A stretch of 38,247 nucleotides of DNA, taken from a virus. Under the pieces are notes generated by a model, which was not told the DNA's origin, made no database searches, and saw nothing but the letters and a program-made list of their open reading frames with translations. Shown piece by piece: positions 3,101-37,808 of this stretch (position 1 is its first letter; the number at the start of each line of letters is the position of its first letter). The stretch lies in IMG/VR virus record IMGVR_UViG_3300012931_000043, positions 1 through 38,247 of that record, one strand, 5' to 3'. The position numbers and the translations under genes are program-made.

Positions 3101-3294
3101 AAGAAACCTACCACTGTGACTCCTGCCTCTGGTCCGGCGACCACGCGCAGACCCTTAAACTTACCGACCACAGGAGTAATATCGAGCACACCTATTGCCC
3201 CGACTGCCGGTCTGAAATCTTCCCGGCCCCTACGGAGCTTGAACGGAAGGCCATTGAGCCGGGGATTAGGTGGATTGAGGAGGCGAGGGGATGA
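3097..3294 (+). CDS. small zinc-ribbon protein
   Basis: 65 residues, ATGA overlap with the previous stop. C-D-S-C and C-P-D-C pairs at residues about 7-10 and 34-37 bracket a short H-containing loop, a plausible zinc ribbon. The acidic C-terminus overlaps the next ATG. Function unknown; one of several C-x-x-C proteins in this operon. Confidence 0.65.
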   Translation: MKETYHCDSCLWSGDHAQTLKLTDHRSNIEHTYCPDCRSEIFPAPTELERKAIEPGIRWIEEARG

Positions 3295-4283
3295 AAGTCT
3301 ATGCAGTCAAGGTTAAAGACGGGTTCTATTTATCGACAGCCCCAGAAAACAGATATTATTCAGCCAATGATGGGGATAGGCTGCATAAGATGTTGATTGA
3401 CGGTTTTCCTCCCGGACCCACGTTTCACAAAAACTGGGTTTTTGTGGACCACGAGCCCATGAAGATTTCCCATATGCAGACCCAACCAAGTATAAACCAC
3501 CGCTACGAACTTATCGACAAAACGCTTGCATCTGATCGTTTTCCGGCAATGTTTGTGCGGGATGATGTGGCATATTTCCATGAAGGCGAGTGGTGCTGGA
3601 AGGAAGAGTTCGTCCCTCTCCGCTCCCTCTACAACAGCGTTTCTGATGAACAACCTGATATTGAGGTTGAAGATCCCCTTGATCTTATCATCGTGGCGTC
3701 TGTTGAAGCAGTATCTACCCCGGAAAGAATCAATTACGTTGTTGCTGCTGGAAGATGGGATTCAGACGGGAAAACGACCATCACAAACGGTAGTGTAGAG
3801 CATCAACTATATGACAAGATCGCTTTCCCGAGCTTAATCATTCATGAAAAACCGTGCCGTCTTTCTTCAAAAGAAAGCTACGACATCATTAGGGAACACG
3901 TCAAGAACAACATCAATCCGATGGCTGCCTCCGTGACAAGTGACTATAATTTTTGCTTCACGGTTCAGAAGCGGGCCCCGAAAGCGAAGCCGTATCACTA
4001 CACGGTGGACGTGAATAACAGTATTTTTGACAAACGAAAGCGACGCCCAAAGTATCAAGAGCGGGTACAAAAAGACGTTTTCTTCCCGTGTTTTGAAATG
4101 ACGTGGAGCCCGGAAAATTACAAAGGATATACACCAATAGAAGGATTTAAAGCCGAAAACGAAACGGCGCTCAAGGAAACCATTGATTCCTATCTTGCTC
4201 ACCTTATGGCGGCGATCAATGAACCGATGAAAGAGTGTCCGACTTGCGAGGGGGTTGGATATTTGAAGGTGGAAAATCCATGA
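3291..4283 (+). CDS. 330-residue hypothetical phage protein with C-terminal CxxCxGxG knuckle
   Basis: ATGA overlap at the start. The first 110 residues look like a beta-rich domain with many aromatic residues. The middle, about 110-240, mixes acidic strands and helices. The last 20 residues contain C-P-T-C-E-G-V-G-Y, a DnaJ-type zinc knuckle half-site common at the end of small phage proteins. No family recognised. The stop overlaps the next ATG. Confidence 0.65.
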   Translation: MKVYAVKVKDGFYLSTAPENRYYSANDGDRLHKMLIDGFPPGPTFHKNWVFVDHEPMKISHMQTQPSINHRYELIDKTLASDRFPAMFVRDDVAYFHEGEWCWKEEFVPLRSLYNSVSDEQPDIEVEDPLDLIIVASVEAVSTPERINYVVAAGRWDSDGKTTITNGSVEHQLYDKIAFPSLIIHEKPCRLSSKESYDIIREHVKNNINPMAASVTSDYNFCFTVQKRAPKAKPYHYTVDVNNSIFDKRKRRPKYQERVQKDVFFPCFEMTWSPENYKGYTPIEGFKAENETALKETIDSYLAHLMAAINEPMKECPTCEGVGYLKVENP

Positions 4284-18294: not shown

Positions 18295-21200
18295 TTAACG
18301 CAAGTGTTCCCGTTCGACCTTGTAGAAAAATCCCATGTACAGCGGCTCGAAGCCGATTGTTTCATTATTCGTGGTCATGACAAACTTGGGTGAATGGAAC
18401 ACCCCGATTTTGGAATTGATGTTTGCAACCACGTTCGCAACACGTTTTCCACTCGAAACGGGCGACATCGTGAACGAAGTCCCGCTAGTCTCCGTGTCAA
18501 CGTAATGGGTGTATAAAACGCTGTTCGCGGTCGTGGTCTTTGCCACCATCGAAAGATTGACATACTGAGCACGTGTCTCGTAAAGCGGATTGTCGGCAAG
18601 GGCGAAGTCTCCGAGCTGGAACGTATGAACGATGTTCCCGCCGTCAAAGCTATTCCCGTATTCCAGGCGTTCGATATACCCGGCATTGATCGCCCCGTAG
18701 GTATAGTTGTTCCCGTAGGTATCCGTGACCTTGAAGCCGCATTGCAGCCGCTTCCCTGTTCCCCGGTCGATTTCAAACCATTTCCAACGTCTCAGGTCGA
18801 AAACGTATTCCTTATCAAGCGTCGCCGACGATCCACTTGCAAACAACCAATGATATTCAAGATTTTCATGGTCGATGAATCCGACGGAATCCGCAATTTT
18901 CGCCGTATTAATGGAAGCCGAGGACCGCTTGTCAAAGAGGTTCTTGATGTCCCCGTGAATAGGCGAGGGGGTCCGTCCGTCCGTGACATAAATCCCGTCT
19001 GCGCCCTGCCAGATTGCAATATGCCGACCGATATAGTTGGACACGCTATCCAAGGGAAGGCTCACCGTTTTCATGGTTTTGGGGGCTACGCAGCCGACCG
19101 TCCCGGAAATAAGTTGCAGTTCCCACACGGAAGGGTCTTTCCCGAAGAGCCGATAGGTCTGGTTCTTTTTCGTGATTATCAGTTGTTCCAGGGCCGAGGT
19201 CAGTACAAGGCTCAGAGTACAAGCGGCGGTCAATTCGGATTCGTCGCCTACGTACAACTCGCCCGAATCCTCTCCGTTAAAGGTGGACTCCATTGCCTCT
19301 GCCGAATAAAGCAGTTTGTTTTTCTTCCCGTTCTTGTCGCTTAGCAAGACCGTCCGGTTTTGGTACATGGTCGGAAAGGTATAAGGGGGAATCGCCTTCG
19401 GGAAAGGAATGCCCCTTATTTCCGACACCTTAACGTCCGCATCGAGTATGCCGGCAAATGAGACTTTGTAATAATAAAGCGGGACTTCGTTGGAGATGGT
19501 CGTGACAAACTCGCCTGTTTCCTTACCCTGCCAGATGACCGTCCCGCCCTTGCTCATCGACGTTGTAGTGGTAAGCGTCCCGTCGCTCAGGGCAACAACA
19601 TCTTCCCAGTTGTCGCCCTTCCAATATTTTGCAGTCATAGTCGTTGCGGCGGTCGTATTTTCCGATCCGGCAACGAAAGTAATGTCTAGGCCCTGCTGAG
19701 GCTGGGTAAACCCGACGACCAGAAAATGGGCCACCGCAAGGCTGCTTAGGTCTGCATAAGTGCTTTGGGAATCATCGGCAACTTCTATAGAATAATCGAT
19801 GTACGTAGTGCCATTGTACTTTAAGGTCTTGATGGCCAGCGACTCTTCGCCGCTCCAAGTGTTCGTTATGCTCTGAGCGGCAGCATTTGTCGTGACGTAA
19901 TAGATCGACGCCTGGCCGGCATCGAAGCTGAATTGATACCAGTAGAGCGAGACGCCGTTAATATACCGCTGTTTGGCCGCCCCGGATGCCGTCCAGTTTA
20001 TTGTGCCGGTAACTGCTAGGGTGGCCCCGGTATCGGTGTTATCCGTGACCGCAAGCGTCGCCCAGGTCGTTCCCTGCCATTCCTTTACGGTCATGGTCGA
20101 GGCAACGGTGTTTCCCGAATAGACGTATATTTTGACGCCCTTTAATTGCTTTCTTGAACCCACGAGAAACGTATTGGAGGCGTTCCCGTATGCCTGTGTC
20201 GGAAGGGATGAAGAGAAATCGCCCGTCCACCTGGCAACCCCTTTCGATATTCGAAGTTCATCGAGATCGCCGTTCAGTTCGCTTCCCGGCGTATGGCCGT
20301 CATACCCGAGATAGAGAGAACCGGCGACGTTCCCCAGGTCAGAAGATCCTATAGCAGTAGTAACGCTTAACGGGATATTTACCCCGCCGATATAGGCGTT
20401 GAGGGCCGTCCCGTTCCTGACAATCGCCAGATGGTACCAGGTATCCTGCACAATTCCCGGCCATCCTGCGGCAGAGGTATAATAAGCCTTGCTTACGCCT
20501 CCAATGGTGAACCTTATATACAGAATGTCCCCTGCGACATGGGATGTCTTATAGACCGACCAAAAGTTATTGGCATCCTGGTATTGAGAAATAATGTATT
20601 GTTCTGCCGCGATATTCGTGAATTTTACCCAGGTATCGATGGTGAAATTCCCGGTTCCGAAAGACCAATCATCGCTATCTGCAGAGGACAGGTAATCTCC
20701 GGGTGCGTTTTGCCAAGAGGAAGCCGTGCCGAAAACAAGCTGGCTTGTAATCGTCTTGGCCGCCCCATTGGCGGCCACGGCATGAAGCGAGGCGGAACTG
20801 TCGGTAAAAGTCGTGCCATTATTGGCCCCGTCCATGTGCAAGAGAAGAACCGTGTAGGCATCGTTCCCGCCGGACACGGAAAGGGTTGCGATCTGATCCG
20901 TTTCCGTTCTTGTGTTGTTTAGAATGTCGCTATAATCGTTAGAGTTTGTGACCGTATATGTCACGGCGGATGACGAGGTAAAGAAAGATGCAATTTCCGA
21001 TTCGTCCCCGCCATAAATGTATTGCTCGTTCCCGTTCGCAAAGACAACGTTGTCATTCGGGACGGTAGCGAAAAATCCATCAGCATAGGAGGTAAGAGAA
21101 ACGACCGGGGTAGCCTCGACAAAATCACCGCCCGCCGGAACGCTTGCCTCGCTTTCGATCAAGACCGCAGTAGTCCCAGTTGCATCATAGGCATGCAGGA

Positions 21201-21501
21201 GAACATGGCTTTCGGTCGGCTGAATCTTGTTGAAATGGAATGCGTTTTTGATATAGGGATAGGCCGAAAGGACCGTGGAATTAACCTTGGTCATCCCGCC
21301 CACGCCCTTTACATGGCTGTCCGTAGGGCGCAGATTTTGAAGCGTTTGAAAATTGGTTCCGATCTGGGTTGCGTCATCGGATTGAATGAGCTTTCCGTTA
21401 AGCGGGATGACCTTGCTTTTCAGCATCTCATCCGCAGCGGACGCAGGAAGAGCGAAGAGAAGCGCAATAATCAGACATGAAAGGACTCTAAAAAGCATCA
21501 C
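18295..21501 (-). CDS. exported large tail/stabilization-type protein with LamG-like domain
   Basis: 1068 residues. Signal peptide F-R-V-L-S-C-L-I-I-A-L-L-F-A-L-P-A-S-A. Residues 45-75 (G-T-N-F-Q-T-L-Q-N-L-R-P) resemble the start of podovirus stabilization/tail-needle adaptor proteins. Residues about 217-435 form a LamG/concanavalin-like sandwich (W-S-F-G-T-G-N-F-T-I-D-T-W-V-K and L-D-E-L-R-I-S-K-G-V-A-R-W-T), a carbohydrate-binding fold. The rest is repetitive beta structure with W-x-G-x-x-W. A four-base overlap joins it to the adaptor gene. The signal peptide is unexpected for a virion protein. Confidence 0.7.
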   Translation of the reverse strand: MMLFRVLSCLIIALLFALPASAADEMLKSKVIPLNGKLIQSDDATQIGTNFQTLQNLRPTDSHVKGVGGMTKVNSTVLSAYPYIKNAFHFNKIQPTESHVLLHAYDATGTTAVLIESEASVPAGGDFVEATPVVSLTSYADGFFATVPNDNVVFANGNEQYIYGGDESEIASFFTSSSAVTYTVTNSNDYSDILNNTRTETDQIATLSVSGGNDAYTVLLLHMDGANNGTTFTDSSASLHAVAANGAAKTITSQLVFGTASSWQNAPGDYLSSADSDDWSFGTGNFTIDTWVKFTNIAAEQYIISQYQDANNFWSVYKTSHVAGDILYIRFTIGGVSKAYYTSAAGWPGIVQDTWYHLAIVRNGTALNAYIGGVNIPLSVTTAIGSSDLGNVAGSLYLGYDGHTPGSELNGDLDELRISKGVARWTGDFSSSLPTQAYGNASNTFLVGSRKQLKGVKIYVYSGNTVASTMTVKEWQGTTWATLAVTDNTDTGATLAVTGTINWTASGAAKQRYINGVSLYWYQFSFDAGQASIYYVTTNAAAQSITNTWSGEESLAIKTLKYNGTTYIDYSIEVADDSQSTYADLSSLAVAHFLVVGFTQPQQGLDITFVAGSENTTAATTMTAKYWKGDNWEDVVALSDGTLTTTTSMSKGGTVIWQGKETGEFVTTISNEVPLYYYKVSFAGILDADVKVSEIRGIPFPKAIPPYTFPTMYQNRTVLLSDKNGKKNKLLYSAEAMESTFNGEDSGELYVGDESELTAACTLSLVLTSALEQLIITKKNQTYRLFGKDPSVWELQLISGTVGCVAPKTMKTVSLPLDSVSNYIGRHIAIWQGADGIYVTDGRTPSPIHGDIKNLFDKRSSASINTAKIADSVGFIDHENLEYHWLFASGSSATLDKEYVFDLRRWKWFEIDRGTGKRLQCGFKVTDTYGNNYTYGAINAGYIERLEYGNSFDGGNIVHTFQLGDFALADNPLYETRAQYVNLSMVAKTTTANSVLYTHYVDTETSGTSFTMSPVSSGKRVANVVANINSKIGVFHSPKFVMTTNNETIGFEPLYMGFFYKVEREHLR

Positions 21502-22400
21502 TTCATCCTCGGGTAAATACGGGCGTTATTCTTCGCCATCGCAATAGGAGTCTGACGCCGATATTTCGCTATTTCTGCCAGATAAGCCGCATAGAACCGA
21601 TCCCCGTAATCAGCCGCCTTGTCTTTGTATTTGTATTTCCAGGCCGCATAGTTGGCCAACGCCTCGGTATAATCGAAGTTTATCCGGAAAAGCCCATAAT
21701 CGTGATAAACCGGGTCCGGGGCCTGAAGGTATGGCACATAGACATAATCCCCAGCATCGTCGGCGGGCGGATCGAGGACGAGCATCAAACGGGCTCGGGG
21801 CTGGATGACAAAGGCGTCCGCGGCGCTAATATCGTTGTTAGTCCCGCCAAAGAGGGCGATATAGATGTTTTTCGTATCCGTGACGGAGAGGACAACGCCG
21901 TCCGAGGCATCCGTGGTGTTGTGAACCTGATCCCCCGCGCTGACGTTCGTGAATTTGTCCGTTAAGGTTGTCAGAAGGCATCTTCCCCCGGTAGCCGCTC
22001 CATCCGCATTCGCCGTGCCTGTCACCTGGGTGTAAAGGCTTCCGTAATCCCGAATGCTAAAGAAGCTAGGCACATCAACGGGGGTCGTATCATTTTCGTA
22101 ATAGCTTTCCGCATATTCCCGGAAATCGATGAATATGTAGTTTGACCCGTCGTAATATTTGACGAAATATTTTCCGCCGTGCTTGAGATAGAGCCCAAGA
22201 TAATCGGCGTTCAAGACATATTCCGATTGATGAGCTACGGTCGTTATGGTTTGTTCCTTGGTCAGGCATTGCGTCTGAATGACCCAGTCCCGAGCGGCGT
22301 CGTTCAAAAAGTCATAGGTCAGCCGGGAATTGATAATTGCGGAAGTGCTCGTCTCGTTCAGGAGTTGGAGAACCCTGCTTGTCATTGTTTTTCCGTCCAC
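21498..22400 (-). CDS. head-tail adaptor candidate
   Basis: 300 residues. The first 50 residues are helical (L-N-E-T-S-T-S.. L-N-D-A-A-R-D-W-V-I), as in adaptor/connector proteins that bind the portal. Beta structure follows, and residues 151-202 match a module in the neighbouring 141-residue protein (G-D-x-V-x-N-T-T-D, V-T-D-T, G-G-T-N). The Y-x-x-Y-K-Y-K end is helical. ATGA overlap with the next gene. Position between capsid and tail genes supports the call. Confidence 0.6.
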   Translation of the reverse strand: MDGKTMTSRVLQLLNETSTSAIINSRLTYDFLNDAARDWVIQTQCLTKEQTITTVAHQSEYVLNADYLGLYLKHGGKYFVKYYDGSNYIFIDFREYAESYYENDTTPVDVPSFFSIRDYGSLYTQVTGTANADGAATGGRCLLTTLTDKFTNVSAGDQVHNTTDASDGVVLSVTDTKNIYIALFGGTNNDISAADAFVIQPRARLMLVLDPPADDAGDYVYVPYLQAPDPVYHDYGLFRINFDYTEALANYAAWKYKYKDKAADYGDRFYAAYLAEIAKYRRQTPIAMAKNNARIYPRMK

Positions 22401-22402
22401 AA

Positions 22403-22828
22403 CTATCTCCTTTCGGGCTGCCCGGGTCCAAACGTGTTCTTGTCCTGCCGGTCAAGGTCTGCATCTTCGGGGCGGAAACCGTCCTCATCGAGAACGTCAC
22501 CTTTGACGACCTTCCATCCCCGGCTCCGGTCGGTGTCTATCGCAGAAAGAAAACCGTCCTTCGTCGCCGTCTTGTAGATATAGGCCGTATCACCATTCGT
22601 CCACGTGTTCGCCGCTCCCCCTGCCAGGGTGCATGTCACCTGCGTATCTGTGACCGCCGTTACAAGACCATTTGACCCATCCGTGTCGTTGTATATCGCC
22701 ACCCCGACCGCTATCCCGCAGAGTGCGAAATGGGCATCCTTGTTACGCAGGATTAGACCACCGTTCGGCCCCTTGTGCGTACAGGTAAGCTGGTAATCGC
22801 TATCAGTGTGCACTTCTTTGACTGACAT
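22403..22828 (-). CDS. beta-rich virion-locus protein
   Basis: 141 residues. Residues about 39-88 contain G-V-A-I-Y-N-D-T-D-G-S, V-T-A-V-T-D-T and W-T-N-G-D-T-A-Y-I-Y, a module repeated in the following adaptor candidate. Start has CAGGGGGAG upstream and overlaps the O-antigen ligase-like gene by 26 bases in a different frame. Possible neck or head-completion protein. Confidence 0.55.
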   Translation of the reverse strand: MSVKEVHTDSDYQLTCTHKGPNGGLILRNKDAHFALCGIAVGVAIYNDTDGSNGLVTAVTDTQVTCTLAGGAANTWTNGDTAYIYKTATKDGFLSAIDTDRSRGWKVVKGDVLDEDGFRPEDADLDRQDKNTFGPGQPERR

Positions 22829-24062
22829 ACTCCCCCTGGATCATGGCCATGAACAAAACCAAAACGATTAAAAAGCACCCCATCTGAAGCGTGAAAAATG
22901 CGTTTGCCGAAATCAGAATTGCAAGGGTAGATAGCCCTATAATGACATCCCGTCCTTTCGTCTTGATAAACGCGATGAAATGGGAAACGATGACCAGCAG
23001 AAGCAAGAATAGGCCGACAAACCCTGTATCGACCGTCCATTGCTCATAGTCGTTATGAAGATGAATCCAAAGGTATTCGATTTTGTTATTGAAATTATGC
23101 TTTTCCCTGTATAGCTTCTTGAAATCTTCCTTGTATAAAACCGAATTAGCCAGCTTTCCCACAATCTCGCGCTTTTGCTTTTCGGCATTCGCGTAGAGCG
23201 GAACGACGTAGAAACTCTGCCCGATCCCCCATCCGAAAATCGGCTTTTCCTTGATAAGATCAAGCGTGGCAATGTAGACTTCCATCCGTCCGGAAATGTT
23301 ACCCGTATGGATGAATTTCATGTATCCGGCAAGGGACCAGAAGGCCAAAGCGAAGCAGGATATGACGATCAGCATTCTTCCGTTTTTGTATTTCCGGAAG
23401 AGCATGTAGACGCCATAGGCGCATGAAACTATAATTGCCGTCATCGCTCCGTTTGTCGTATTGGCGAGGGCCAAACCAAGAGCTTGAGGGATAAGCCCCC
23501 ATGCCCATCTTTTCCTGAAAAAGAGGGGGGTCGTTATTGCCAGATAGACGGAAACCTCGTTCCTGTTCGCAAACCAGCCCGTCTCTAAATCAAGGCTTCC
23601 CGGCTTCGGATAGAAGAAAAAGTAGATCCCGTAATGCTGAAGAACCAGCCAAAGGACATTTACGAATGCGAAAATACATAGCGAGTTAATGAGAAGATCC
23701 CTATAAGGGCGAACGTAATCCTTATAGAACGTCACCGCGAGGAGATAGAACGCCAGATAAAATATGGATATCAGGAAGAATGTGTACGGGTCTGTCGTGA
23801 ACATAGCGACCGTATAAAGCAGGACAAACGCGCCAAGGATTCCTACCGTTCTGTTAGCCTTCGCATAGATAAGTCCGCAGATAAACAGGTAAATTGCCAT
23901 CATGGGAAAGAGCGATTTCTGCACGCGCAGATCTATGATCTTGCTCGGAAGAAAAAGAGCAACACCGCAAATGACAACGATTACCAGGAGGGGGAAATAC
24001 CGCTCCCCCTCCATGGTATCGGTTAGGAAATCACTGACTCGCCGTGTAATAGAACTCAACAC
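22803..24062 (-). CDS. O-antigen ligase / Wzy-type polymerase-like membrane protein
   Basis: 419 residues with about ten predicted membrane spans and one large extra-membrane loop (about residues 250-345). Loop hallmarks: S-G-R (257-259), P-I-F-G-W-G-I-G-Q (273-282) and H-L-H-N-D-Y-E-Q (334-341), plus G-W-F-A-N-R-N-E (162-169); this is the O-antigen ligase/polymerase (Wzy_C) pattern. Such enzymes join undecaprenyl-linked glycans or transfer them to lipid A-core at the periplasmic face. GTG start behind GAGGTGAAGG; both ends overlap virion genes (32 and 26 bases), so it is embedded in the late operon. A serotype-converting enzyme in a virion gene string is unusual. Confidence 0.85.
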   Translation of the reverse strand: MLSSITRRVSDFLTDTMEGERYFPLLVIVVICGVALFLPSKIIDLRVQKSLFPMMAIYLFICGLIYAKANRTVGILGAFVLLYTVAMFTTDPYTFFLISIFYLAFYLLAVTFYKDYVRPYRDLLINSLCIFAFVNVLWLVLQHYGIYFFFYPKPGSLDLETGWFANRNEVSVYLAITTPLFFRKRWAWGLIPQALGLALANTTNGAMTAIIVSCAYGVYMLFRKYKNGRMLIVISCFALAFWSLAGYMKFIHTGNISGRMEVYIATLDLIKEKPIFGWGIGQSFYVVPLYANAEKQKREIVGKLANSVLYKEDFKKLYREKHNFNNKIEYLWIHLHNDYEQWTVDTGFVGLFLLLLVIVSHFIAFIKTKGRDVIIGLSTLAILISANAFFTLQMGCFLIVLVLFMAMIQGEYVSQRSAH

Positions 24063-24729
24063 CCTTCACCTCAAGGTCGCCGGTTCCAGCCGCCGCGTTA
24101 TCCCGCCAAATCCGCAAAGTGACCCAATCGCCCGCCGCCAAACTCGCAAAATCCGTCGCCGGGGTCAGGGTAACGACAACCGGAGTCGCCGTGTAAGATC
24201 CCGTCCCGAGAGCAACCGGAGTCTGCCCAGTTGCGGCAGCATCAAGGGCCGATCCGCTTCTGTTGACGTACACATCGAAATCGACTTGGTTCGGAGTCGT
24301 AGAGTCGCTTTCCGTACACAGCAACCGGAAAGCCCCGCCGCTCGAATAGTCGGATGGCACCCTGAAAGTTGTGACTACAGGGGTCGTTTCGCCGTCCGCC
24401 CAAACGATGTTAGGGATAAGATCATCAATCTCGAGCCCCGGGTTCGATGATGTCGAAAGCGGACTTGCGTCCGTATCCGATAGAAAACCCATAAGCGGAA
24501 GAGGAATAGACCTTTCCCTTGAATTGCTCAGCGTCCCGGAAATGTAGGTGTTGCCTGAGCTGTCGACCGAGAAGACCCTCGTTCCGGAACTGTTCTGCAC
24601 TTCGATTTGATAGGTATCTTCCGAAAGAGCCTTGAGACGGACGGCGTTAAAATCCGTCTCTTCGGCAAATGCGGAAAATGCCGTCATCAGAACAGCGAGG
24701 ATTACGCTAATAAATACAAACCTCTTCAT
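24031..24729 (-). CDS. exported fiber-like protein next to the capsid gene
   Basis: 232 residues. Signal peptide M-K-R-F-V-F-I-S-V-I-L-A-V-L-M-T-A, cleaved near A-F-A. Then R-V-F-S-V-D-S-S-G-N-T-Y-I-S-G-T-L, a fiber/head-spike style repeat, and a C-terminal jelly-roll-like part with L-E-V-K-G-V-E-F-Y-Y-T. AAGGAGG before the ATG. Sits directly downstream of the capsid gene and overlaps the O-antigen ligase gene. A decoration or fiber protein made with an export signal is the oddity. Confidence 0.65.
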   Translation of the reverse strand: MKRFVFISVILAVLMTAFSAFAEETDFNAVRLKALSEDTYQIEVQNSSGTRVFSVDSSGNTYISGTLSNSRERSIPLPLMGFLSDTDASPLSTSSNPGLEIDDLIPNIVWADGETTPVVTTFRVPSDYSSGGAFRLLCTESDSTTPNQVDFDVYVNRSGSALDAAATGQTPVALGTGSYTATPVVVTLTPATDFASLAAGDWVTLRIWRDNAAAGTGDLEVKGVEFYYTASQ

Positions 24730-24747: not shown

Positions 24748-25671
24748 TTAAGGAATGTTACCGTAGAAGCACTGCTCGTCCTTGATCTCCGCGCTCCACC
24801 GCTGATCCGCCTTGCACATCATGTCGCCGGTCTGGAAATCGCCTTCCCGTGCGAACCGGGTCTTGCGCCGCCAGAAGAAGACGATGCCCATGCCGTTGAG
24901 TTGCAGGACCCACATATCGGTGTCGGTCATGTGCGGCCAGACAACGATCTCAGTTTTCCCGCGTTTGCTGTCGGCAATGGCGCTGACGGCCCGGTTTCCG
25001 GTGTCGGGGCGGTCGGTCGAATGCAGGATCTCCCGGATAGCCCGCTCGCCCTGCGGAGGCACCCACGCCTTTTCCACCTTCTTGGTGATTCGCTGTTGCC
25101 GCTGGTTGTACTGATTCTCGGCGGATGCCAGAACGGACCAGTAGGTCAAGTATGTGAGGTCGGCATTGGTCGCGTAGTTCTGGAAGGTTGAACCGTCCAG
25201 GCGCGGGTGATCGGTCGCGAAAAGCGCCTTGCCAAACCGAGTCGTGTGATAGGTCGTCGCCGTGCTTGAGTTCAGAAACACGGCCATGCGGACTTCGATG
25301 TTGTCCGCCATGGATTCCCCGAGGTCGTAGAAGATTTCCTTGAGGTTGCCTTCCCCGCCGCCGTTCAACTCGTACAGGTTGTCGTCAATGGCCTCTTCGG
25401 AGATCCGCACGCCGAGCGCGTACACCTTGTGAGCCCATTTCTGCTTCGGGCCGCCGATCTGCACGTCATAGCTGATCGGGACACCTTCGCCCTTTTCCAC
25501 CGGAGTCCCGAGGCCGGACCGAATCGCATCCTCCTCGTATCCCTTCTTGCTGGTCTTCACCGTGACCAGCTTCATTCCCTGGCTTTCCGTTCTCTTGTTG
25601 ACGTACGAATCAACCGTGACGGTAAACAGGCCGGGGACCATCTCATTGACAAAACGTCCTCTGTTCCACAT
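24748..25671 (-). CDS. major capsid protein
   Basis: 307 residues, HK97-fold capsid of the Mu gpT-like type by pattern: F-G-K-A-L-F-A-T-D-H-P near residue 150, a charged W-V-P-P-Q-G-E-R segment near 200, W-P-H-M-T-D-T-D-M-W-V, then F-F-W-R-R-K-T-R-F-A, E-G-D-F-Q-T-G-D and a final Y-G-N at the C-terminus. AGGAGG site. Sits after scaffold and decoration-type genes, the usual order. Good confidence from motif order, no alignment available. Confidence 0.85.
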   Translation of the reverse strand: MWNRGRFVNEMVPGLFTVTVDSYVNKRTESQGMKLVTVKTSKKGYEEDAIRSGLGTPVEKGEGVPISYDVQIGGPKQKWAHKVYALGVRISEEAIDDNLYELNGGGEGNLKEIFYDLGESMADNIEVRMAVFLNSSTATTYHTTRFGKALFATDHPRLDGSTFQNYATNADLTYLTYWSVLASAENQYNQRQQRITKKVEKAWVPPQGERAIREILHSTDRPDTGNRAVSAIADSKRGKTEIVVWPHMTDTDMWVLQLNGMGIVFFWRRKTRFAREGDFQTGDMMCKADQRWSAEIKDEQCFYGNIP

Positions 25672-28271: not shown

Positions 28272-28557
28272 CCAGTATCACCGACCTAAGAACGCTCGCC
28301 TCGATCTGATTAAACGCCGCCTCGGTCAACAGCTTCGCCTTTTCTTTTTCTTCCTTCGTCCGGGCCATATCAAGCGGCACTTTGACGATTTCCCGAAGCA
28401 TGTCCGTCACTCCCTTGAAATACTCGGGGTCGCGCTTCGTCAGGAGCACATTCTTAAAGAATGCCGCCCCCGCCTTTATCTCCGCATGGCGGTACTGTGC
28501 AAAATCGTTACTGAGCAACCACTCCGGATTTCTGGGGCTGTCTTGGTTTTCCGCCAC
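28264..28557 (-). CDS. 97-residue helical protein next to portal
   Basis: GTG start behind GGAGG, overlapping the end of the portal gene by 50 bases. All-helical, charged, with A-E-I-K-A-G-A-A-F-F-K and K-V-P-L-D-M-A-R-T-K-E-E. Resembles small portal-linked head proteins of unknown role. Confidence 0.55.
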   Translation of the reverse strand: MAENQDSPRNPEWLLSNDFAQYRHAEIKAGAAFFKNVLLTKRDPEYFKGVTDMLREIVKVPLDMARTKEEKEKAKLLTEAAFNQIEASVLRSVILDE

Positions 28558-30460
28558 TTAATTCGGCCTCCATCTGCATCTGTTTACCCATCTGCATGAC
28601 CTTCTGTTTTAATTGCGGGAAGGCCGTAAAAATCGCGATGAGCTGATTGACTTCCGGATTCAGGTATTCCTTCGGGTCATCCTTCCCGTATTGCTTCAGA
28701 ACGTCGGTCCTGATCTTGATTTGATCGATAATCGGGTCGTTGTTGTACATCATCTGGACATCTTCGGCCTCTTTGCGGGAAAGTAGCTTATTCGCCTTCT
28801 CGGTGCTCCCGGTGAGCCTGAATTTCACTTGTCGCCGCATGAACTGACGGGGGTAAAGAATCGTTTGCCCTTCAAACTCAATGGTCTTGTCGTAGGGCAT
28901 GTTCTTATAATATAGGTCATACATGGTCTTGAGGACGGAAAGAAATTCCTCCTTAAACGTATTGGCCTGATAGTTGTGCTTGATATTCCCTTCCTGAACA
29001 GCCGTGAGGATTCCCGTCGCAGTTTCCTTTTTGTCGGCAAGGCGGCCGATCTGCGGGTCGGCGATGCTGGTCAGGCGTTCCCAGAAGGTAACGACCGATT
29101 CAAAGACGGTAATCAGGCGGGTGGGGTCGCCGGCGAAGGTGGGGAACTTGATGCCCTCAATCGATTCAACCGGGACACCCGCACCAGGGAAGATCTCGTT
29201 CTTATCTTTCAGGCCCGAATTCTCATCATAGAAATACCACGGAATCATTCTGATCGTGGAATCATTGACGATCTGGTTGAATAGTTCGCTCCCCCCGTTC
29301 TGAAGAGACTTTATTTTTCCGTAAAGACATGTTCCGAAAGACCGATCAATCTCCGGAAACAACCGAACCCGCTTGATCATTTTTTCATTGCTGAAATTGA
29401 TTTGCCGCTGAAGAACAAGCCGGTACATTATTTCGGATTTAAGGGCAATCGTGACGATTATCTTGTCCTCTTCAAACGATTCCCGCTTGTCGCTCTCCGG
29501 CTCCTCCTCGCTGTCCAGCGGCAGGGGATACGAAAGATGGACCTCGATGCTCTCAATGGTTTCTTTTCCCGTGATTCCCGCATCGTCTAGTTTCTGCCCC
29601 GGTGTCTGTTGCTCGTTTTCGGTAGTCTGTGAAGCGGCGGCCTTTTCGCCTAACAGCCACTTGCCGATATTGACGTAGCCGAGCTTTCCGACCTTACCCA
29701 TTAACTCCGCATAAGTCGGGCGTACGATCCGGATAACCGGCTCTTTCTCCCAGGCTTCCGGCGTCCCTACATCATCGGCGCAAAGAATGTCCTTGAAAGG
29801 AACGAAATCGAATTTCCCGCCCTCAAAGACGGTTGTTTCTTGCTCTTCGGTAATGGCCTCACCGTTTTCGTTTATTGAAATCCTTCCGCTTGATTGAACG
29901 TTTCCTTTCTCATCAAGCACCGGAACATCAGCACCGTTCGCGTCTTTTTGAGTTTGCGGGTCGTATTTGAAATCAATGACTTTCCGTTTTTCCTTGTCAT
30001 ACTTCGGAACGGGATAGGCGGTCCCTTCAAGCAGAATCGTGTGCACGGTGTTCCTTGCGAGGTCTTCCACCATGCAAACGTCCTTCAGCTCCCGGTTGAA
30101 ATCATCCTGGATTCTGGTTATAACCGGGTCTTTCTTCGGGGACGCGCTTTGATCGAATGCGACAATAGGGTCAGTTCCGGTCAGCCCGGCGACAAGGCGA
30201 GGTTCGAGATTGTCCACCGAAATGGTAGTAAAAGGCATGATATAGTTAGCGGCATCCTTCCAAGGGAACGTTGCCTTTTCCGCCTTCTGCTCATAGACCC
30301 TATGCGATTCCTCGATTTCGGCGATCTTGGCTTTGCGATAAGGAGACTCCTTAAACTCCTTGTAGAGCTTCATGCAATGATCAACAAGGGCCTGAAATTT
30401 CCTGTTGTCGGGGGCCTGATCTAAATCGTTGTTCACGGAGGCTATTACTTCTTCGTCCAT
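28508..30460 (-). CDS. portal protein (podovirus type)
   Basis: 650 residues, the right length for a podovirus-type portal. Layout: helical N-terminus, an early F-P-W-K-D-A-A-N-Y-I-M-P-F segment (about 77-89), a large acidic/basic middle, long wing/stem helices and a C-terminal helical barrel with Q-F-M-R-R-Q-V-K-F-R. Position between head-side small genes and the scaffold gene fits. The ring threads DNA through the capsid vertex. Start behind GAGGACG. Confidence 0.85.
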   Translation of the reverse strand: MDEEVIASVNNDLDQAPDNRKFQALVDHCMKLYKEFKESPYRKAKIAEIEESHRVYEQKAEKATFPWKDAANYIMPFTTISVDNLEPRLVAGLTGTDPIVAFDQSASPKKDPVITRIQDDFNRELKDVCMVEDLARNTVHTILLEGTAYPVPKYDKEKRKVIDFKYDPQTQKDANGADVPVLDEKGNVQSSGRISINENGEAITEEQETTVFEGGKFDFVPFKDILCADDVGTPEAWEKEPVIRIVRPTYAELMGKVGKLGYVNIGKWLLGEKAAASQTTENEQQTPGQKLDDAGITGKETIESIEVHLSYPLPLDSEEEPESDKRESFEEDKIIVTIALKSEIMYRLVLQRQINFSNEKMIKRVRLFPEIDRSFGTCLYGKIKSLQNGGSELFNQIVNDSTIRMIPWYFYDENSGLKDKNEIFPGAGVPVESIEGIKFPTFAGDPTRLITVFESVVTFWERLTSIADPQIGRLADKKETATGILTAVQEGNIKHNYQANTFKEEFLSVLKTMYDLYYKNMPYDKTIEFEGQTILYPRQFMRRQVKFRLTGSTEKANKLLSRKEAEDVQMMYNNDPIIDQIKIRTDVLKQYGKDDPKEYLNPEVNQLIAIFTAFPQLKQKVMQMGKQMQMEAELSGGKPRQPQKSGVVAQ

Positions 30461-31183: not shown

Positions 31184-31401
31184 ACCTTCACCGCCCGGAT
31201 TTCCTTGGTCGCCGCATTCTGCTGGATCTCGGCAAGGTGTTGGGCCCCGCCCGGGCCCTCGACATAGGTGCGGCAAATCTTGTTCCAGGTTTCGGTCGGG
31301 CCTTGGACCACGTTCAAAAACGCTTCCGTGGCCGTCACCTTCCCGTCCGGAACACCCGCCATAATTTTGGGTATTTTAAATTCCTTCTCTTTCTTCTTCA
31401 T
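31180..31401 (-). CDS. 73-residue hypothetical protein
   Basis: ATG at 31401 overlaps the GroES stop (TGATG), with GGGGGATAC upstream; a GTG at 31416 is less likely. Basic N-terminus (K-K-K-E-K-E-F-K-I-P-K), then helical with W-N-K-I-C-R-T-Y. Function unknown. Confidence 0.5.
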   Translation of the reverse strand: MKKKEKEFKIPKIMAGVPDGKVTATEAFLNVVQGPTETWNKICRTYVEGPGGAQHLAEIQQNAATKEIRAVKV

Positions 31402-31679
31402 CACAGTATCCCCCACACATCGTTTTCGCTCAGGATAAGAAACTTCTCTTCCTGGATCTCGACCTCCATTCCGGCATATTTCGCGTGCATTATTACGTCA
31501 CCGACCTTGACTTCCATAGGTGCACGCTTTCCGTTATCCAGGAGTTTGCCCTTTCCGACTTCAATCGCAGTGCCGGTCATACCCTTTTCCTGACAGCTAT
31601 CAGGGATGATTATCCCTCCCTTCGTGACGGTCGCCGCCTCAGTCCGCTTGACTAAAATCCGGTCATTCAGCATTCTCAT
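31401..31679 (-). CDS. groES: GroES-type co-chaperonin (phage)
   Basis: 92 residues from ATG at 31679 (AGGAG 9 bases upstream; the longer start at 31703 has no site). L-N-D-R-I-L-V-K-R opens it, the mobile loop with G-G-I-I-I is near residues 21-30, then A-I-E-V-G-K-G, V-K-V-G-D-V-I and a final I-L-S-E-N-D-V-W. This is a normal GroES layout (family about 97). Phage co-chaperonins (T4 gp31 is the known case) help fold the capsid protein with host GroEL. No GroEL gene is present here; portal and capsid genes lie downstream. Confidence 0.9.
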   Translation of the reverse strand: MRMLNDRILVKRTEAATVTKGGIIIPDSCQEKGMTGTAIEVGKGKLLDNGKRAPMEVKVGDVIMHAKYAGMEVEIQEEKFLILSENDVWGIL

Positions 31680-31696
31680 AAAGATTGTCTCCTGTG

Positions 31697-32140
31697 TCAG
31701 CATTTGAAATGCAGTATCACTCGCCCCGTAGTCGTCGCCCCGGCATTGGCGATAGTCAGCGTTATATCGTCGTCCAGGGCGATCGGCTGAACCGGAATAT
31801 ACTCTTCGGCTACCGTGCCACTTCGGTCCTTCACATACCCAGCGGCGATGTCCTGGCCATAAGAATCGAGCAGCGTCAGGTCATAGGCGGCCGTCGGCAG
31901 GGTCGTTGCAAGATCTCCGTTCAGGCCGGGGATTGTCTCCACCTTTACCAGTTTCCCGGTGATCTTCGACGGCTGCGGGGTCGAATAACCGAACTTCGCA
32001 AGGGCCGCCGCAGAATACAGGCTCATCAGCGCCCCGCTTGCCGCGCCACCCACCGTGGACAGCCAATCAATGACGATCTTGTTTTCTCCATCCCGAGCAA
32101 ACGGATTACTCATGCTTGTTACTGTCACGGTTCCGGCCAT
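31697..32140 (-). CDS. beta-rich head-region protein
   Basis: 147 residues behind TAGGAGG. N-terminal M-A-G-T-V-T-V-T and S-N-P-F-A-R, then strand-rich sequence with I-P-V-Q-P-I and G-R-V-I-L-H-F-K. No signal. Likely a head or connector accessory protein between terminase and portal. Confidence 0.55.
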   Translation of the reverse strand: MAGTVTVTSMSNPFARDGENKIVIDWLSTVGGAASGALMSLYSAAALAKFGYSTPQPSKITGKLVKVETIPGLNGDLATTLPTAAYDLTLLDSYGQDIAAGYVKDRSGTVAEEYIPVQPIALDDDITLTIANAGATTTGRVILHFKC

Positions 32141-32467: not shown

Positions 32468-32649
32468 TATTCCTCCCACTCAATAGTAACAACCGAATCT
32501 CTGTCTTTCGGCACGATATCCGCAACGGTCGCCTCCCAGGGGTAGCCGGACGGGGAAATGTAGGATATGGCTTCCCCTTGCTCGTTCCGGCGACATCCGT
32601 GAAAAACGACCTGCTTTTTCTTGGGCTCGGTCGTGTAGACGGTGCTCAT
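32467..32649 (-). CDS. 60-residue hypothetical protein next to terL
   Basis: ATGA overlap with the terminase stop and TAATG overlap with the next gene. Small beta-type sequence with K-Q-V-V-F-H-G-C and Y-P-W-E-A-T-V. Unknown. Confidence 0.55.
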   Translation of the reverse strand: MSTVYTTEPKKKQVVFHGCRRNEQGEAISYISPSGYPWEATVADIVPKDRDSVVTIEWEE

Positions 32650-34145
32650 GCCCTCACCTCGACATATCCGCCCGGCGCATCGGGAACGTGGCGGTTCTGC
32701 CAGTTGGAGAAGCCAGATGCTTGACGGCCCTTCGTCAATGCTCTTCCTTTTTGGTGAACGGGGTAGGCAAACGACAGGGCCAAGGCGTCCCCGCGCCCAG
32801 GAGACGGCAGGCCGCGCTTTTTCATATCCTTCTTGGCCTCTAATTGGAGGATTCCGTCACCGCGCGGGATCATTTCGGGGCCGATTAGATCGTTATAGAG
32901 CACGGTATCCTTGGGGATGCTGCCGCCCTCCTTGAGCCAGTCCCGCATCGCCTTCCACATTTCCGCACGCTTGTTCAGGCACCCGGGCCGCAAGGGCTTC
33001 TCCGCAAACCAAACTAGTCGCCAGTTGATGCGCTTGAGCAACTTACCGGCCGAGTAAATGCCCGTCCCGTACCCGGCATCGATGAACACGGCATCGGCAT
33101 TAATGGTGTCCTCAATGTCAGCGATGATGGACGCGACCTGCATGTCGTTATCGTTCTTGGGGATCACACGCATGATCTCAAACTTAATCCCCTGACGCAT
33201 ACCGATGACCAATTCATCGTCCCCTTCCCACGCAGGGTCACAAGTGATGATCTTTGGGGCGAAGGAATACTCTTGAATCCGCACTTCTCGCCCATACGCC
33301 TTATCAACATCATCCACGCTGATAAACTGGCGCATCGACAAGGACGGGAATATCCCACGAACACGGACCTTTACGAAATCGCTATCGAGTCCGTAGTCGT
33401 CAATCCACTCCTGGATTTTTTCTTTGTTGGTGTGCCGGCTATCCCGGCTATCGATCTGCCGCGTTACCCATCGGTGGCGGAACTTCCCGAAACACTCCTT
33501 GAACCGGCCGCTATTGCGGGTAGGGTTGCCAAACACACACCAAATCAGTTCAGTCCCCTCATCGGTCAGGGCCCCCTCGGAAACCTCATAGATCACGTCG
33601 GGGATTGCAGAGCCCTCATCAAACAGGAGAAGCACCCGCTTGCCTTTGTTATGCAGACCGGCGAATGCCTCTGTGTTTTTTTCACTCCACGGAACCTGAT
33701 CGATCCGCCATGTCCTGGAGTGATTGGGATCGACCGAGAACAATGACGTGGCGGTCATGGTGAACCAGTGGCGGTTGATAGCCAACCGGTGCCATTTTGA
33801 TAGCTCAGCCCAGGTCTTTGTTTTTAACTGGGTCTCGGTGTTGGCCGTGACGACACCCTTGCAGTCCTCGCACGTGCTCATTGCCCACAGGATGATCCAT
33901 GAGACGAGGGCGCTCTTACCTATCCCGTGCCCTGAAGCGACGGCGATCTGGATGGCCTCTTCCGGGGTAATTAGGCCATTGCCGATAGCCGTCAGGATCT
34001 CTACCTGCCAATCATCAGGGCCGTCCTCGTTTGCGAGTTCCCCTGTCCCCCAGGGAAACGCGAAATAGACGTATGACAGCGGGTCGTGCACCATCGTGCA
34101 GACCTGGTCTATGAGCTCATTTTCCGCTTTGTCAATTTTCGCCAT
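32646..34145 (-). CDS. terL: large terminase subunit
   Basis: 499 residues. Walker A G72-H-G-I-G-K77-S78, Walker B L-L-L-F-D176-E177, and the downstream RNase H-type nuclease with D303 in T-C-D-P-A-W and D356 in V-F-I-D-A-G. This is the packaging motor ATPase and headful or cos nuclease. It lies after terS in the late operon with a 171-base gap in between. A typical length for TerL. Confidence 0.95.
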   Translation of the reverse strand: MAKIDKAENELIDQVCTMVHDPLSYVYFAFPWGTGELANEDGPDDWQVEILTAIGNGLITPEEAIQIAVASGHGIGKSALVSWIILWAMSTCEDCKGVVTANTETQLKTKTWAELSKWHRLAINRHWFTMTATSLFSVDPNHSRTWRIDQVPWSEKNTEAFAGLHNKGKRVLLLFDEGSAIPDVIYEVSEGALTDEGTELIWCVFGNPTRNSGRFKECFGKFRHRWVTRQIDSRDSRHTNKEKIQEWIDDYGLDSDFVKVRVRGIFPSLSMRQFISVDDVDKAYGREVRIQEYSFAPKIITCDPAWEGDDELVIGMRQGIKFEIMRVIPKNDNDMQVASIIADIEDTINADAVFIDAGYGTGIYSAGKLLKRINWRLVWFAEKPLRPGCLNKRAEMWKAMRDWLKEGGSIPKDTVLYNDLIGPEMIPRGDGILQLEAKKDMKKRGLPSPGRGDALALSFAYPVHQKGRALTKGRQASGFSNWQNRHVPDAPGGYVEVRA

Positions 34146-34316: not shown

Positions 34317-34862
34317 TTACCCATTGCGCCCCACTTTCGCCAATCTCTCGCGGGCAGCTTTTAACCTCTCTGTGAGATCTATTCCACCCGAATGTTCCAA
34401 TTTGTCAACCAAGTGTCCCTTGAGCCGTGCGGCAAATTGCACCATGTCTGATTGGATTCCGAGGGCCTCGACTTCTCTAGTCTCGATCACAATTCCCTTA
34501 TCCGAGAAAAACTTTGTTTCTTTTGCCGCACTTAGCTCTTTAATCCGGGCGGCGATGTGATCATCGGTGAGGCCGGCTGCATCGAGAATCTGGTGAAATG
34601 ATTGCTGAATCTTTGGGTTTCCGATGATATCGTCTTGGCGGGTTTTTGCGTAACTATCTGAATACCCGGCATCTTTACAGGCCTGTGTTGTTGACTTCCC
34701 TTCAAGGAGTGATTTTGCTATGATTCTACCCCGCCTTCTGAGGTCTGATTTTGATTTACTGAGTTGTGTTTTTGGCTGGTTCTGTTTTTTTCGATCCCCT
34801 GCGGGGGGCAGGCTCGTGGAACTCGCCTCTGAGTTGGGTGCCACTTTTGGGGGTCGTGCCAT
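34317..34862 (-). CDS. terS: small terminase subunit
   Basis: 181 residues. Basic P/S-rich N-terminus, then R-R-R-G-R-I-I-A-K-S-L-L-E-G-K-S-T-T-Q-A-C and D-A-G-Y-S-D-S-Y-A-K, an N-terminal helix-turn-helix DNA-binding segment. C-terminal helical multimer domain. First gene of the late operon, followed by terL. Weak GGTGACG site before ATG. Confidence 0.8.
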   Translation of the reverse strand: MARPPKVAPNSEASSTSLPPAGDRKKQNQPKTQLSKSKSDLRRRGRIIAKSLLEGKSTTQACKDAGYSDSYAKTRQDDIIGNPKIQQSFHQILDAAGLTDDHIAARIKELSAAKETKFFSDKGIVIETREVEALGIQSDMVQFAARLKGHLVDKLEHSGGIDLTERLKAARERLAKVGRNG

Positions 34863-37259: not shown

Positions 37260-37808
37260 TCACCCTGTTTTTTTCGTCCTGGGTTTCCTGGGAGGTTTCT
37301 TAATTATTGACGCTTCCCGTATTTCTTCAATAATTGCGTCGGTATTTGTTGATAGTGCCCATATTGGTATTCTGATAATTTCGTAGCCCATGCGCCTTAA
37401 GTACACGTCCCGGCTTGTGTCGTGTTTCACCATGCTTTCACTGTGATGGTGTGGCCCATCCAGCTCGATAATCACCCTTTCATTTACGATAAAATCAGCT
37501 GTGTAAGGCCCTATTTTTCTTTGGAATATACATTTAATGTCGTTGTCTGACAGCATCATGAGTAATATTTGTTCGGCTTTACTGTCGGCTGGTTTCTCAA
37601 TCACCGCATTAACTAACTTATCTATGCAAATAAATGCGGGTTTCCGGTAAAACTCTATTGTTTTTGCCCTCACGTGATTACCAAAGGCGTTGACTATTTT
37701 CTCCGGATCACACCCCTCACTGGCCATCTGTTCAATGACTGGCCCGAAGGTTTTTATTGCGTCATCCGTGATCTTTTTCGTAATCTCTTGCATTGAAATT
37801 CCCATCAT
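37260..37808 (-). CDS. DUF559 / Vsr-like PD-(D/E)xK nuclease
   Basis: 182 residues. The C-terminal 105 residues are the nuclease: E79, F-Q-R-K-I-G-P-Y-T-A-D105-F, V-I-I-E115-L-D117-G-P-H-H-H, then Y-L-R-R-M-G-Y-E-I-I-R-I. The N-terminal part is a helical extension. Homologues relate to very-short-patch repair endonucleases and to nucleases of mobile DNA. Overlaps the upstream gene by 47 bases; internal ATGs at 37805 and 37793 are possible. Confidence 0.85.
   Translation of the reverse strand: MMGISMQEITKKITDDAIKTFGPVIEQMASEGCDPEKIVNAFGNHVRAKTIEFYRKPAFICIDKLVNAVIEKPADSKAEQILLMMLSDNDIKCIFQRKIGPYTADFIVNERVIIELDGPHHHSESMVKHDTSRDVYLRRMGYEIIRIPIWALSTNTDAIIEEIREASIIKKPPRKPRTKKTG

Follow-up and report, generated by a model that had tools for sequence, protein, structure and literature searches.

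Why would a virus keep a gene of the O-antigen ligase/polymerase kind among the genes that build its particle, and onto what could the encoded enzyme transfer a glycan? The window analyzed here, the whole 38,247-base contig of an uncultivated virus, carries such a gene on the minus strand (22803-24062). The gene starts with GTG and encodes a polytopic membrane protein of 419 amino acids with a Wzy_C domain, as judged from a Pfam match (PF04932), a profile match to WaaL and a structural model. An earlier note on this DNA had placed the ORF at these positions, overlapping its neighbours by 32 and 26 bases, within the late virion operon. The ORF and both overlaps were found to be exact, and the late position is right, the gene lying on the same strand as its two late neighbours and overlapping both of them. 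The note had also set the gene between the capsid block and the adaptor, which holds, but this interval contains two other genes as well. On the minus strand the order is the major capsid gene (24748-25671; PF25209, E 2e-7), a gene for a 232-amino-acid protein predicted to be exported (24031-24729), hereafter the partner, with which the enzyme gene shares 32 bases, the Wzy_C gene itself, a gene for a conserved protein of 141 amino acids whose start is conserved in relatives (22403-22828; 26 shared bases), and an SU10-type head-tail adaptor gene (21498-22400; PF24175, E 6e-7).

The remainder of the late block is also on the minus strand. It includes a weakly matching small terminase (34317-34862), the large terminase (32646-34145), a GroES/Cpn10 co-chaperonin (31401-31703; E 3e-28) and a large protein without family match which, by its position, is the probable portal (28508-30460). 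Scaffold-region genes lie between the latter and the capsid gene, and tail-region genes follow the adaptor. HTVC023P and DSL-LC04 likewise carry GroES/Cpn10 in the late block. One tail-region protein (18295-21501, minus strand, 1068 amino acids) has a signal-peptide-like start, MMLFRVLSCLIIALLFALPASA, and a Laminin_G_3 lectin domain (E 7e-14); its counterparts in L035, L037 and L045 are without a signal-like start. Elsewhere in the window we noticed a Gad1 anti-Gabija defence protein in the early region (3291-4283, plus strand; PF25705, E 2e-68), a DUF559 nuclease-like protein (37260-37808, minus strand; E 7e-13) and, at 1-279, a tandem repeat of about 11 copies of a 24-base unit, which lies within the N-terminal part of ORF 22-738. 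The enzyme gene has a third-position GC of 0.58, versus 0.60-0.64 in the genes at 24031-24729, 22403-22828 and 21498-22400. On this value, near that of the neighbours, a recent import from the host was rejected, the enzyme gene showing no obvious sign of one.

The family of the enzyme was clearly recognized. Pfam Wzy_C matched residues 195-355 (22998-23480) with an E value of 2.2e-16 and 60.5 bits against a cut-off of 31.7, and the corresponding enzymes of L045 and L056, two related phages described below, matched it too. The enzyme of a further phage, L073, gave no Pfam Wzy_C match and is related to that of L056 (E 4e-10 for the pair). When a profile of the phage enzymes and five cellular relatives was compared with the WaaL structure 7TPG, the E value was 1.5e-13. 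The model of the enzyme, built from ten sequences, is of low confidence (pLDDT 57.8, pTM 0.48); its best match in the PDB was WaaL, with a VIA-align Z score of 13.0 over 299 residues at an rmsd of 4.5, and Foldseek returned WaaL as the sole match above noise (probability 1.00, E 0.02). The SEDS polymerases FtsW and RodA ranked after WaaL as structural matches. About 12 helical spans are predicted by the model, with a loop of some 85 residues ahead of span 10, a feature shared by WaaL; a simple count from hydropathy gave 10 spans and left their orientation unsettled. The call of a WaaL/Wzy-type gene, which the earlier note had tied to a Wzy_C match and a membrane topology of this kind, is thus borne out by the domain and profile matches and by the predicted spans. 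Used directly as a query against phages, plasmids, viral contigs and GTDB contigs, in searches that pick up only moderately close relatives, the enzyme found nothing, and tblastn against phage records, D3 included, gave no match.

Identity with WaaL is about 13% in the structural alignment. In sequence and profile alignments, His336 of the enzyme (codon 23055-23057) pairs with WaaL His313, the acceptor-activating residue, and Arg259 (codon 23286-23288) with the diphosphate-binding Arg265 (PMC10920833 for the roles of the WaaL residues). The His336 equivalent is kept in all four full-length phage enzymes; identities among the enzymes of the five phages are roughly 19-38%. The position of the first diphosphate-binding arginine of WaaL, R191, is occupied by N in the window and by T, V or K in relatives, and the PglL_A motif (PF15864) was not matched by the window enzyme in Pfam at E values up to 1. 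The Wzy_C histidine is also present in PglL, and PilO lacks the PglL_A motif as well (PMC3643930). Since the Wzy_C motif of D3 Wzy-beta, a phage O-antigen polymerase, contains an essential histidine (PMC4815439), this residue does not single out ligases, nor does it separate ligase, protein transferase and polymerase. With the histidine and one arginine present, and the other WaaL arginine and the PglL motif absent, sequence cannot decide between WaaL, Wzy and PglL. Membership of the Wzy_C (O-antigen ligase, GT-C type) superfamily is justified; filing the enzyme as WaaL, PglL or a D3-type Wzy is not.

The partner gene begins 18 bases after the capsid gene, so that its product is probably synthesized in large amounts during late infection. 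A Sec signal peptide, MKRFVFISVILAVLMTAFSAFA (24664-24729, minus strand), with cleavage between AFA and E, is predicted for it, followed by a fibre-like segment and a C-terminal jelly-roll domain resembling CBM6/35/36 (predicted, 24034-24522). In the partner copies inspected by eye, from the window and its relatives, the N-terminus combines a hydrophobic stretch with basic residues and an AxA-type site. All copies but that of L045 passed a crude script, which falls short of a true signal-peptide predictor. The partner model has a pLDDT of 68.8, reaching about 80 in the jelly-roll part, which aligned by VIA with the carbohydrate-binding module 7zvo (Z 12.4, 127 residues, rmsd 2.5). The same part also resembles ephrin receptors and Cry toxin domains, and the fold is therefore no proof of sugar binding. 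No match to the partner was found in phages, Pfam, NCBIfam at its cut-off, PHROGs or PDB sequences. A conserved S/T-x-P loop (residues 95-97) could be a candidate glycosylation site, and equally a metal-binding or structural loop.

The junction between the two genes (24031-24062, minus strand, frame +1) has the same architecture wherever they were found. In all five phages the final 23-32 bases of the partner gene contain the enzyme start, a GTG or TTG in the +1 frame. It comes right after the codons of a conserved E-L/V-K motif of the partner, which was read by eye, and bases of this motif also form the closest stop upstream in the frame of the enzyme. A weak start codon inside the end of the partner gene, with a constant frame relation in every case, indicates that translation of the enzyme is probably coupled to that of the partner. 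A programmed frameshift fusing the two proteins was considered on account of the +1 offset in 5/5 and set aside, start codon and coupling being sufficient. The common junction suggests a single ancestral cassette. Between the window and L072, non-synonymous change is lower than synonymous change in both genes, with pN 0.25 and a saturated pS of 0.77 for the partner, and dN 0.66 and dS 1.86 for the N-terminus of the enzyme.

The five phages carrying the cassette, namely the window, L045, L056, L072 and L073, are all uncultivated and some are on short contigs. The other four were traced first by way of the capsid protein and then by a search with the partner. Among relatives whose capsid proteins are about 58-68% identical to that of the window, the interval from the capsid gene to the 141-amino-acid gene is a variable slot. 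Most of them have a 300-330-amino-acid protein there, one with a sub-threshold beta-helix match, and others have HNH genes or further proteins; L045 and L056 have the same two genes as the window. The slot is visible in 17 contigs of the capsid lineage, counting the window; 3 have both genes and 14 neither, a pattern expected by chance about once in 680 when calculated by hand and with kinship ignored. The search with the partner recovered L072 and L073, and in both the enzyme gene adjoins it. The capsid protein of L072 is only 24% identical to that of the window versus 67% for the partner; its enzyme, cut off by the contig end, is 36% identical over 114 alignment columns. L073 has two copies of the partner gene followed by one enzyme gene, downstream of a portal-like gene, unlike the slot after the capsid gene. 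From its occurrence beside such divergent capsid proteins and at another site in L073, the cassette is concluded to move as a unit. The recurrence of the gene pair and its junction in four other contigs also ruled out a chimeric contig or an assembly accident. A Wzy_C family search had no hit in the 33 records that terminase or capsid relatives had first led to. The scan with the adaptor yielded no confirmed relatives, and the terminase relatives were uninformative on the slot. Homing-endonuclease-like genes, recognized by eye, lie right after the capsid gene in L037 (707-1381), L044 (10019-10495) and L072 (2715-3164), and may hint at how the slot opened or spread. The same slot in L054 (10994-13895) contains a 524-amino-acid protein with fibre-like repeats, another protein that by eye is a possible methyltransferase, and a DUF7164 protein (E 6e-33).

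The nearest cellular Wzy_C relatives (L067-L071) come from Vibrio europaeus, Enterovibrio, Pseudomaricurvus, V. aestuarianus and V. anguillarum, and are 22-26% identical to the enzyme over part of the protein. In 5/5 of them the Wzy_C gene is preceded by a small one whose product has a putative signal peptide; no such gene was seen upstream of 10 further Wzy_C genes from three of the same genomes. This pattern lends weak support, since the five probably form a single orthologous group; by inspection, the upstream proteins have no evident resemblance to the partner. The Wzy_C gene and its small upstream gene are possibly an undescribed two-gene unit. Some of these relatives lie near polysaccharide genes, a neighbourhood which leans towards a polymerase.

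Partner and enzyme quite probably work together. As a working model, the enzyme gene would come second in a mobile cassette of two genes within the virion operon. The partner, produced in quantity late in infection, would leave the cytoplasm by the Sec system, and translation of its end would start enzyme synthesis at the weak codon. The enzyme would sit in the inner membrane with its putative active site (His336, Arg259) towards the periplasm, and would move a host sugar chain from undecaprenyl pyrophosphate to an acceptor. The roles that the earlier note had proposed, namely surface-glycan remodelling, virion release or exclusion of competing phages, had been framed without the exported partner, whose constant presence shifts the likely acceptor: by analogy with bacterial pilin/O-oligosaccharyltransferase pairs, the best candidate would be the co-made partner itself, and the product a phage protein bearing glycan, located in the periplasm, at the cell surface or on virions after release. 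Bacterial protein O-oligosaccharyltransferase genes mostly adjoin the gene of a likely target, 21 of 31 being beside pilin genes, and pilO adjoins its pilin gene (PMC3643930); the cassette has the same layout, and we therefore favour, tentatively, late glycan transfer onto the partner. The family and residues of the enzyme, the pairing in five phages, the junction, the double partner of L073 and the 67% identity of the partner speak for this reading; against it stand the missing PglL motif, the lack of an R191 equivalent, the ambiguous nature of the S/T-x-P loop, the low pLDDT of the enzyme model, the small number of phages, five, the low enzyme identities among them, and the surroundings of some cellular relatives, which fit a polymerase. 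Weighing both sides, we regard it as a plausible reading with something short of an even chance.

Close behind ranks the remodelling of host surface glycans put forward in the earlier note, in which the enzyme would ligate or polymerise O-antigen or capsule late in infection, the partner serving either as a lectin-like accessory or, independently, as an exclusion factor, and which would prevent re-adsorption to debris or exclude competing phages. The predicted fold and the motif of the enzyme are those of WaaL, carbohydrate-binding modules are similar to the partner model, polysaccharide genes lie close to some of the nearest cellular relatives, and a precedent exists in D3 Wzy-beta, which contributes to both serotype conversion and resistance to superinfection (PMC4815439). 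However, remodelling alone leaves unexplained why the enzyme is always paired with, and coupled to, an exported protein, expression from the late virion operon leaves little time to act, and no tblastn similarity links the enzyme to D3 Wzy-beta. Rather improbable is a reading in which the partner would serve as a decoration or fibre protein of the virion, with a mere signal-like anchor, and the enzyme would be a passenger of a permissive slot, contributing little or nothing to the particle. The variability of the slot, the cement protein annotated there in a distant cultured relative, the PurM gene of HTVC023P a few genes past the capsid gene, and the slot proteins of L034 and L035, which have hydrophobic N-termini yet no enzyme beside them, are all consistent with a passenger; nevertheless, the pair has been kept over a large divergence with the histidine motif and the junction intact and no stops, under the lower non-synonymous change described above. 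A further reading takes the window gene for a classical lysogenic-conversion moron placed by chance among the late genes. In its favour, the phage Wzy_C genes so far reported, those of D3 and VarioGold, were assigned to conversion or, putatively, to lysogeny (PMC4815439, PMC9658991). The D3 and VarioGold genes, however, run opposite to the late genes, whereas the window enzyme overlaps both late neighbours. Promoter and terminator signals around the enzyme gene were as frequent as in shuffled sequences, none above background, and no integrase was found among the window ORFs scanned; lysogenic conversion by this enzyme is accordingly unlikely, and of the readings considered we hold it to be the least probable.

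Returning to glycan transfer onto the partner, its consequences would be considerable. The pair would be, to our knowledge, the first phage-encoded one for lipid-linked protein glycosylation. More generally, a late, mobile and partner-coupled form in phages with no visible integrase would mean that phages, whose O-antigen enzymes are known from lysogenic conversion, also transfer glycans in the periplasm while particles are being made. A more doubtful extension is a phage-encoded protein glycosylation system, in which a Sec-exported protein of the virion operon would receive the host lipid-linked glycan from a co-translated Wzy_C transferase and reach the particle or the cell surface; if so, the phage would wear or display host O-antigen. 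A literature search for phage-encoded O-oligosaccharyltransferases or Sec-exported virion proteins returned nothing relevant. The cassette itself is a concrete two-gene signature which can be searched for.

Besides the cellular relatives above, known systems can be set beside the cassette. WaaL (CAZy GT121, 7TPG) has, like the enzyme, a Wzy_C domain with the catalytic histidine and the second arginine, and, like the enzyme model, a multi-span topology with a long periplasmic loop before the last spans (predicted for the enzyme); the enzyme differs in its unconserved R191 position, its place outside an LPS locus and its constant exported partner. PglL and PilO/TfpO are likewise Wzy_C-type enzymes, often beside a gene for an exported target in the same orientation; unlike these systems, the cassette has no PglL_A motif, its partner is not pilin-like and its acceptor is only inferred. 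D3 Wzy-beta and VarioGold VG_p25 are, like the enzyme, phage-encoded Wzy_C membrane proteins; their phages are temperate. Neither has tblastn similarity to the window enzyme; with D3 Wzy-beta as tblastn query only Pseudomonas phages and VarioGold were found, and a profile comparison between it and the enzyme gave a probability of 0.3. In VarioGold (L089, 2054-4203), VG_p26, a 299-amino-acid protein with a putative signal peptide, is encoded 14 bases upstream of VG_p25. By inspection VG_p26 has no evident likeness to the partner; the layout is that of the cassette, which is suggestive. Phage Wzy_C genes are thus already known from D3 and VarioGold, and it is their late, partner-coupled form that looks new.
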